A DNA stretch of 64,000 bases, taken from assembly GCF_007096355.1 (NCBI RefSeq), contig NZ_VKDF01000004.1:357-64356 (forward strand), written 5' to 3'. Positions 15,294 to 21,011 of the stretch are shown in pieces. The notes below the pieces were generated by a model that did no database searches, was not told the origin of the DNA, and saw only the letters and a program-made list of their open reading frames with translations. The position numbers and the translations under genes were made by a program. Position 1 is the first letter of the stretch. Each line of letters starts with the position of its first letter. This DNA comes from Paracoccus sp. M683. Lineage in GTDB: Bacteria; Pseudomonadota; Alphaproteobacteria; Rhodobacterales; Rhodobacteraceae.

Positions 15294-15992
15294 ATGCGCA
15301 TCGGCATTCTTCAAGCTGGTCAGTCGCCCGAGGTTCTGAAAGCCTCTCTGGGCGATTATCCTGACATGTTCACCCGGCTGCTGGCCGGGCGCGGCTTCGA
15401 TTTCAGCCATTTTCATGTCGAGGGCATGGATTTTCCTGTCAGCCCCGCCGATGCCGATGGCTGGTTGATCACCGGGTCACGCCACGGTGCCTATGAGGAT
15501 CACGCCTTTATCCCGCCGCTGGAAGATTTCATCCGGCAGGCCTATGCGCAGGGCGTGCCGCTGGTCGGGATCTGCTTTGGCCATCAGATCATCGCGCAGG
15601 CCTTGGGCGGGCGTGTCATCAAACACCCGGATGGCTGGGCCGTCGGCACGCAGGATTACGATTTCGAGGGCGAAAAGGTCGTGCTGAACGCCTGGCATCA
15701 GGATCAGGTCGTGGACCTGCCGGCGGATGCCCGCGTCGTCGGCACCAACGCCTTTTGCGAAAACGCCGCGCTGGTCTATGGCGACCGCGCCTATACGGTG
15801 CAGGCGCATCCCGAGTTCGAGGACGATTTTGTCCAGGGCCTGATCGAGCATCGGGCCAAGGGCAAGGTGTCGCAGGATCTGCTGGATGGCGCGCAGGCCC
15901 GGATGGGCGAGGCCAAGGCCGGCAATCAGGTCGCGGACCGGATCGAGGCGTTTTTCAAGCAGCCCCGCAACCTTGCCAAGGGGGCCGCGTGA
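15294..15992 (+). CDS. Class I glutamine amidotransferase family protein
   Basis: This is a 232-residue stand-alone class I glutamine amidotransferase domain. The triad is complete: nucleophile C94 in GICFGHQ, and H172 with E174 in QAHPEFE. It lies 115 bp upstream of a PuuA-like glutamine synthetase, and a PuuB-like oxidase is nearby. A role in hydrolysing a gamma-glutamyl conjugate (the PuuD job) is therefore reasonable, although its motif is closer to GMP-synthase-type amidotransferases than to classical PuuD. The ATG at 15294 gives the normal N-terminus MRIGIL; an upstream GTG at 15264 is less likely. Confidence 0.85.
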   Translation: MRIGILQAGQSPEVLKASLGDYPDMFTRLLAGRGFDFSHFHVEGMDFPVSPADADGWLITGSRHGAYEDHAFIPPLEDFIRQAYAQGVPLVGICFGHQIIAQALGGRVIKHPDGWAVGTQDYDFEGEKVVLNAWHQDQVVDLPADARVVGTNAFCENAALVYGDRAYTVQAHPEFEDDFVQGLIEHRAKGKVSQDLLDGAQARMGEAKAGNQVADRIEAFFKQPRNLAKGAA

Positions 15993-19904: not shown

Positions 19905-20200
19905 GGCACCGGCGGCTTGGCGTCGCCTGCTGCTGGGAAATCATGGCACTCGGCCGTGAAATCCGAATCACCAAGCTGTGAAATTGCGTGATTCGTGCCA
20001 GATTTCCCGTGTTTCGCCGGCGATTTGATCCATATTTCGTTCTGTCTGGGATTTTGCCCCACTTTTTTCAGTCCGCCATCATTTCACTACATATAGTGTT
20101 CGTGGCTGGCTGAGGCGCAATTTTTATACAAATTTCCCTATGATCGGCGTAATGTTCTTATTGTGTTTCGCGGCATTGGTCGAACATGTCTGCGGTTTGG
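19905..20200. other. AT-richer intergenic stretch before the division cluster
   Basis: Nearly 300 bases with no convincing gene on either strand. The stretch contains runs such as CACTACATATAGTG and several T- and A-rich patches that could hold the promoter for the mraZ leader, but I could not fix a -35/-10 pair. Open frames crossing it lack ribosome sites or family resemblance. Confidence 0.6.
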
Positions 20201-20240
20201 CCCATAGATTTCCATTGCGTCCCATGAAATCCCATGTCAC
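20201..20240 (+). promoter_or_regulatory. Four 10-bp-phased MraZ-type boxes
   Basis: CCCAT, TCCAT, CCCAT and CCCAT begin at 20201, 20211, 20221 and 20231, exactly 10 bp apart with 5-bp spacers. Read on the other strand these are ATGGG-like direct repeats. E. coli MraZ binds TGGGN direct repeats with 5-nt spacers upstream of its own gene, so this is the expected autoregulatory site, with four boxes instead of three. Confidence 0.7.
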
Positions 20241-20254
20241 AACTTGAATCACGA

Positions 20255-20467
20255 AAACGGGCAGTGAAGGGGCAACAAGACCCCGCGAAGGCGAAGCAGG
20301 CTTCATACAGGCACCCGTTTTCCAAACATGCCGGCCCAACGTGCGAGCAGCACCTCCCCCAGGTGGCGCGTGGCGGTCAGGCGAACCCCGGAAAGACGGG
20401 GCCCAGTAATGGGAACGAGGGCGGCGGATCGGGCAGTGGCAGCGGCCCGATCCGCCCTTTCTCTTTC
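20255..20467 (+). ncRNA. UpsM-like leader sRNA upstream of mraZ
   Basis: Rhodobacter sphaeroides makes an abundant sRNA, UpsM, from the long 5' leader of its division cluster, ended by an intrinsic terminator ahead of mraZ. The same layout is present here: about 270 non-coding bases between the MraZ boxes and mraZ, with a strong terminator at 20423-20467. Smaller hairpins such as CCCCGGAAAGACGGGG near 20386-20401 also occur. The 5' end given is a guess from the UpsM length of about 200 nt. The call rests on position and structure, not on sequence alignment. Confidence 0.6.
20423..20467 (+). terminator. Intrinsic terminator inside the mraZ leader
   Basis: A perfect 12-bp stem, GGCGGATCGGGC (20423-20434) with GCCCGATCCGCC (20445-20456), has a 10-nt loop and is followed by the pyrimidine tract CTTTCTCTTTC. 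It lies 44 nt before the mraZ start, so only read-through transcripts reach the division genes. Confidence 0.8.
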
Positions 20468-20487
20468 GGGCGGACCGAAAGGGCGGA
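20451..20487 (+). promoter_or_regulatory. Alternative hairpin that competes with the leader terminator
   Basis: TCCGCCCTTTC (20451-20461) is perfectly complementary to GAAAGGGCGGA (20477-20487). The left arm reuses six bases of the terminator's 3' arm and its U-tract, so the two structures exclude each other, as in attenuators. The trigger that would shift the balance is unknown. Confidence 0.55.
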
Positions 20488-20510
20488 CAGTGAGGTAAGG
20501 AGCAGCCTAC

Positions 20511-21011
20511 GTGGCGCGCAGGTTCAGAGGCTCGGAAGAGGTCAAGGTCGACACGAAAGGTCGTGTCTCGATCCCGGCCAAGTTCCGTCGCGTGTTTGAA
20601 CAATGCGACCCCGACTGGCAGCCCGGCAATCGCCCCCAGCTTGTCATCGTCTATGGCACCAGCAAGCAGAACCACTTGCAACTTTACACGATGGAGGCGA
20701 TCGAGGATATCGACCGCCAGATCGACCGCATGCAGCGCGGCACGCCTGAACGCGCCATGCTGGAGGCCTCGATGAACGGTTTCGCCGAAGAGGCCGAAAT
20801 CGACGGCGATGGCCGCCTGCTGCTGCCCCAGAAGCTGCGCGAGAAGATCGGCCTGACCGAACGCGCCTTCTTCATCGCGTCGGGTGAATATCTGAAGCTG
20901 TGGACGCCCGAGGCCTATGCCGAAGATGCCGAGCGTCTTGAGGCGCGCATCCCCGATTTTGAACCGGGCGCCGACCCGCTGTCGCTGTTGCCTGCGCGGG
21001 ACGAGGGCTGA
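20511..21011 (+). CDS. mraZ: Transcriptional regulator MraZ
   Basis: This is a 166-residue MraZ, the conserved first gene of division clusters, with two SpoVT/AbrB-like DNA-binding modules. The first reads [14 protein letters not shown] (residues 13-26) and the second [17 protein letters not shown] (about 100-116). It forms ring oligomers and represses its own promoter in E. coli. The matching 10-bp repeats at 20201-20240 fit that role here. The start is a GTG at 20511 with AAGGAG 9 nt upstream. It is separated from rsmH by 4 bp. Confidence 0.95.

Follow-up and report, generated by a model that had tools for sequence, protein, structure and literature searches.

The leader that precedes the division-gene operon in this Paracoccus genome (G000) is read here, at a probability of about 0.7, as a weak-tailed UpsM leader on which most transcripts are ended as a small RNA (sRNA), and whose control lies in the pairing of an StsR-like sRNA at the R1 region and the subsequent action of RNase E. 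In the mechanism proposed, the terminator would be weakened by its poor U-tract, such that most transcripts end as the small RNA and few read through, and control is predicted to act at the R1 motif, not at the second stem which a first-pass annotation of the sequence had put forward as a switch. The conserved StsR-like sRNA would pair at R1, causing the R1 closing stem to open and RNase E to gain access to the leader, which it would presumably then cut. The features to which this reading refers are given below in positions of the window, i.e., the whole 64-kb stretch of DNA that was analyzed, with the sRNA gene given by its own locus.

20200–20235, minus strand: MraZ-box-like repeats of the TGGGA type with a 10-bp period, from direct reading (units GCCCAT, TTCCAT, TCCCAT, and TCCCAT at 20200, 20210, 20220, and 20230)
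20215–20243, plus strand: likely promoter, read by eye in conserved columns of the Paracoccus alignment (−35 box TTGCGT at 20215–20220, 17-nt spacer, −10 box CACAAC at 20238–20243)
20250–20465, plus strand: UpsM-type leader RNA of ~215 nt with an R1–R4 fold and putative ends
20253–20322, plus strand: R1 of the minimum-energy fold, closing stem 20253–20261 with 20314–20322
20296–20313, plus strand: predicted StsR-like pairing site, from cofolding with the own-genome sRNA, with the conserved motif TTCATACAGGC at 20302–20312
20330–20382, plus strand: R2, predicted hairpin with a bulged GAGCAG at 20345–20350
20386–20401, plus strand: R3, predicted short hairpin
20423–20456, plus strand: R4, predicted terminator stem that covaries, loop AGTGGCAGCG at 20435–20444
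20457–20467, plus strand: interrupted pyrimidine tract CTTTCTCTTTC, U-poor across the family
20451–20487, plus strand: stem A, 20451–20461 TCCGCCCTTTC with 20477–20487 GAAAGGGCGGA, judged not to be a switch
20463–20481, plus strand: hairpin B, predicted pairing of 20463–20469 CTTTCGG with 20475–20481 CCGAAAG (P 0.997)
20511–21011, plus strand: mraZ, first gene of the dcw cluster, GTG start at 20511, open frame with a match to PF02381
L190:1541–1615 (G000:C23:317222–317296): gene of the StsR-like sRNA, 5′ half almost invariant

The mraZ gene opens a division and cell-wall cluster, the later genes of which were named by eye. The leader lies directly 5′ of mraZ and its R1–R4 fold closes with an intrinsic terminator, as is characteristic of UpsM, and the initial assignment to the UpsM type, with a terminator ahead of mraZ, is borne out by both position and R1–R4 anatomy. 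We infer that the locus corresponds, in Paracoccus, to the UpsM leader of the division-gene operon and that it is transcribed and terminated there as well. An Rfam scan of the leader gave no match, and an Rfam match to mir-8813 at 15803–15895 was taken as a chance match. An open frame of 121 codons (20234–20599) crosses the leader into mraZ; in PMC5089854, a leader sORF is described for R. sphaeroides only.

Comparisons were made with a first set of 178 oriented leaders from 61 Paracoccus genomes, 5 named loci yielded by a search of named genomes for MraZ relatives, and 112 family genomes of other genera, the last out of 117 with an mraZ match (leaders of G092 and G137 were added later, and G101, G111, and G166 were left out). 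Motifs were counted in the 176 full-length leaders (66 Paracoccus and 110 others), and the Paracoccus leaders from the 61 genomes and 5 named loci comprise 64 unique ones. Transcription likely starts near 20250, judging from the putative promoter boxes read by eye, and the MraZ-box-like repeats occupy the interval from the likely −35 to the likely −10 box and the sequence immediately upstream of it. Their two-repeat pattern is found in 64/66 Paracoccus leaders, in 41/110 other leaders, and in none of the shuffles. TGGG repeats are binding sites of MraZ, and MraZ may bind to those found here; as they lie inside the likely promoter, autorepression by MraZ is possible.

The 12-bp terminator stem reported in the first-pass annotation is indeed present, with arms GGCGGATCGGGC (20423–20434) and GCCCGATCCGCC (20445–20456), the loop AGTGGCAGCG, and the tail CTTTCTCTTTCGGG, and has a folding energy of −26.7 kcal/mol and a probability of 0.996 in the ensemble of 20415–20513. 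Its loop motif GTGGCAG occurs in 66/66 Paracoccus and 82/110 other full-length leaders, a few of these 82 matches falling outside the terminator, and a stem of at least 6 bp closed on GTGGCAG was found in 143/178 leaders. In a set of 145 leaders, in which the invariance of the loop is by construction since they were chosen for GTGGCAG, 1658/1740 stem cells are in standard pairs, and two-sided changes number 45, 53, 47, and 33 at pairs 2, 3, 5, and 7 of the stem, respectively. The terminator loop GUGGCAG is kept family-wide while its stem covaries. The leader tails average 5.3 U per 9 nt, their U runs never exceeding 5 (n = 135), compared with 8.1 U in 9 for the terminators of the StsR-like sRNAs, of which 151/156 have a run of at least 7. 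Such a U-poor tract across the family likely allows read-through without any switch. It has to be noted that a “leaky” terminator is a matter of degree, since in PMC5089854 the read-through of UpsM in R. sphaeroides is estimated at ~1 in 100 and its terminator is termed strong.

An alternative is that read-through is set by a factor that binds the GUGGCAG loop, or by an upstream refolding of the leader, with StsR governing decay only. The GTGGCAG-closed stems and the two-sided changes in them would fit a hypothetical loop-binding factor, while for a refolding there is the precedent of R2–R4 in R. sphaeroides, which was modeled for UpsM and yet, in PMC5089854, reported not to be conserved across the family. 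Pairing of upstream sequences with the 5′ arm of the terminator was no better than chance (mean of 6.5 bp vs 6.6 bp in shuffles for 61 Paracoccus leaders, and 6.4 bp vs 7.0 bp for 82 others), and an upstream antiterminator was rejected on these grounds. This alternative is considered unlikely. The idea of a terminator with an alternative fold in UpsM was already in print, in the form of the R2–R4 refolding of PMC5089854.

The switch that had been proposed would have stem A compete with the terminator and thereby split transcription between the sRNA and the division genes. The stem itself exists as described, with 11 Watson–Crick pairs and no interruption, shares 6 nt (20451–20456) with the 3′ arm of the terminator, and is above chance in the source window: in 2000 shuffles of the downstream stretch that preserved dinucleotides, its 11 bp were attained once, and the 64-kb window holds perfect inverted repeats of at least 11 bp with a loop of 3–30 nt at 4 distinct places, two of which are the terminator and stem A. 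Its role as a switch is nevertheless very improbable, as judged by the order of synthesis, energy, and conservation. The 3′ arm begins at 20477, i.e., downstream of the tract, and from the anatomy of intrinsic terminators the transcript would be released within the tract at ~20460–20467, before 20477–20487 is transcribed. The energy of stem A is −19.0 kcal/mol, and its probability in the ensemble of 20415–20513 is 7 × 10⁻⁵. In the two nearest relatives (L004 and L048), the longest helix of this type has 5 bp, and 11 bp are reached in only 5/64 unique Paracoccus leaders even with G-U pairs allowed. The shuffle comparison, which covered 64 unique Paracoccus and 71 unique other leaders and was made for both the A-type helix and the pairing of the tract, gave a mean A-type helix length in Paracoccus of 7.2 bp vs 6.7 bp in shuffles, with 4/64 unique Paracoccus leaders at or below the 1-in-20 level. 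Pairing of the terminator 3′ arm with downstream sequence above 0.1 is predicted in 9/66 Paracoccus and 8/77 other leaders, these being the 143/178 leaders with a GTGGCAG-closed stem of at least 6 bp, which were also used for the tract-pairing counts. Neither a competing stem that forms before the termination decision nor a conserved alternative stem, as would be expected of an attenuator, is found here. Covariation of both stems in relatives had been suggested as a check on the switch; the terminator stem does covary, while the second stem lacks conservation, an outcome that the first-pass annotation had itself named as speaking against its proposal. With stem A missing in the nearest relatives and copied after the terminator, control likely comes from a family-wide sRNA instead.

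The fold contains a further element, hairpin B, which was absent from the first-pass annotation and is compatible with the terminator, with an energy of −10.3 kcal/mol by itself and −37.0 kcal/mol together with the terminator, compared with −19.0 kcal/mol for stem A alone. A role after read-through could be envisaged for stem A or hairpin B, by which either would mask the U-tract or shape the region of the mraZ start in the mRNA. In favor of this are the predicted formation of hairpin B, the pairing of the tract above 0.5 in 57/66 Paracoccus vs 21/77 other leaders, and the helices of at least 9 bp in 37/60 Paracoccus leaders vs 25% of mononucleotide shuffles. The tract pairing in Paracoccus, however, is 0.78 vs 0.73 in dinucleotide shuffles and is thus largely a matter of composition, and outside Paracoccus it is 0.56, i.e., below the 0.62 of the shuffles. 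As a selected element, hairpin B exceeds chance only in part, as it beats mononucleotide shuffles and hardly the dinucleotide ones, and such a role after read-through is quite improbable.

The reading preferred here, control by an StsR-like sRNA at R1, builds on the conservation of the R1 motif and of its predicted partner. An sRNA of a predicted 72–75 nt with an RpoH-like promoter shows complementarity to the R1 motif UUUCAUACAGGC, and ATACAGGC is present in 64/66 Paracoccus and 96/110 other full-length leaders. When the own genome was scanned for sequences complementary to the R1 motif, 9 places matched, vs 2 for the reversed pattern; one of the 9 is the leader, and among the other 8 only L185 looked sRNA-like by eye, being preceded by promoter-like boxes and followed by a terminator. 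The sRNA was detected in 60/61 Paracoccus genomes, in 119/120 genomes of the family, and in 121/121 genomes sampled at the level of the order, every one of which belongs to the Rhodobacteraceae; the two genomes in which it is missing are 71% and 74% complete, respectively. In a survey of 142 genomes of the class, 17 matches at E up to 0.01 were obtained, of which two, at 111 and 90 bits, are to members of the family and the other 15 score 22–30 bits, and the two-motif leader, searched as an exact pattern only, was found in 2/142 genomes, the same two family members. The family, class, and order surveys each covered more than 40 genomes and were therefore run with stricter filters, at the cost of weak matches. 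Nucleotides 2–41 of the sRNA are identical in 150/156 copies, and its promoter boxes, read by eye, are CTTGGA and of the TATAA type. The Rfam matches of the sRNA (Hrs13 at 24 vs 52 bits, suhB, and SorY) are below the gathering score and were taken as chance. StsR (RSs0827) is known in R. sphaeroides as an sRNA dependent on RpoHI/HII, as described in PMC8307010, PMC8625941, and PMC11354728, and the Paracoccus sRNA is most likely StsR, given its length, the type of promoter seen by eye, and its partner. A search of the open-access literature found no description of StsR outside R. sphaeroides, which the primary StsR paper may contain.

Pairing with UpsM, as known for StsR, is seen here in prediction. 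Duplexes were calculated for 150 of the 156 sRNAs, those with a leader of at least 400 nt, and have a median energy of −35.9 kcal/mol vs −24.9 kcal/mol for shuffled leaders, the best shuffled duplex being −33.1 kcal/mol and the worst real pair −26.3 kcal/mol. The predicted duplex starts in the R1 zone in 147/150 pairs, and no recognizable pairing site was found in 3/150 leaders. In the source window the site has a mismatch, giving −31.5 vs −38.7 for a typical site. In cofolding of 111 pairs for which both motifs were required, the site is predicted to be paired in 111/111, and the R1 closing stem, present in 68 leaders, is lost in all 68; the unpaired fraction of the R1 3′ arm rises from 0.26 to 0.47, and the median pairing of the terminator is 1.00 with and without the sRNA. 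The freed R1 3′ arm (20314–20323) re-pairs in the predicted complex with R3 at 20390–20401. Such an opening of R1 with an intact terminator fits the reports on StsR, UpsM, and RNase E of R. sphaeroides, according to which StsR binds to UpsM, and a part that was double-stranded before becomes accessible to RNase E (PMC8307010, PMC8625941, and PMC11354728). A paper citing the primary StsR work adds that read-through into dcw is influenced by StsR pairing and cleavage as well, and the intact terminator of the predicted complex does not explain this reported effect.

Covariation between the two RNAs is not convincing, as 14/95 substitutions in 147 sites keep the pairing vs 7.7 expected, and the R1-site substitutions that break it are mostly at the first two positions. 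Among diverged pairs, the cognate sRNA of G185 gains little over the consensus (−30.1 vs −29.1), and that of G112 is worse (−15.2 vs −20.1). The GAGCAG of R2 is present in 153/173 leaders vs 10% of shuffles. A second contact, between the 5′ end of the sRNA and the R2 bulge, was considered from complementarity seen by eye and the conserved GAGCAG, and was set aside as it exceeds 0.3 in only 14/111 cofolds, nested cofolding being a method that shows a second contact poorly. A more far-reaching proposal is that UpsM is inseparable from StsR, the two RNAs making up a module that defines the Rhodobacteraceae and gates the division operon, in which the almost invariant 41-nt 5′ half of StsR would touch both R1 UUUCAUACAGGC and the GAGCAG of R2, the GUGGCAG loop would dock a read-through factor, and MraZ would repress the promoter. 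This proposal is tentative, and we regard it as doubtful in its full extent.

With a plausible but unsupported switch removed, the focus shifts to an evolutionarily kept leader motif together with an sRNA; the two are found jointly in genomes throughout a large bacterial family and would link cell division to the stress sigma factors. Coordinates in a Paracoccus genome are thereby given for a predicted UpsM/StsR pair outside R. sphaeroides, and attention is drawn to the kept terminator loop as a candidate binding element. The SAM-riboswitch-derived sRNAs SreA and SreB of Listeria, cited in PMC5089854, are likewise terminated leaders usable as sRNAs; unlike them, the Paracoccus leader has no identified ligand domain and no antiterminator above chance. 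The putative StsR of Paracoccus resembles that of R. sphaeroides in its length of ~72 nt with a predicted intrinsic terminator, its RpoH-like promoter by eye, and its complementarity to UpsM. The UpsM of Rhodobacter sphaeroides is an sRNA of ~200 nt that arises by partial termination, with no separate mraZ start, Hfq binding, and processing by RNase E. The leader described here differs from it in belonging to another genus and in carrying hairpin B, which is mainly a Paracoccus feature; the R1 motif is its most widely kept part, whereas PMC5089854 calls R1 hardly conserved. What it shares with UpsM, as described in PMC5089854, is the place before mraZ, the R1–R4 fold, the intrinsic terminator, and the family-wide occurrence.
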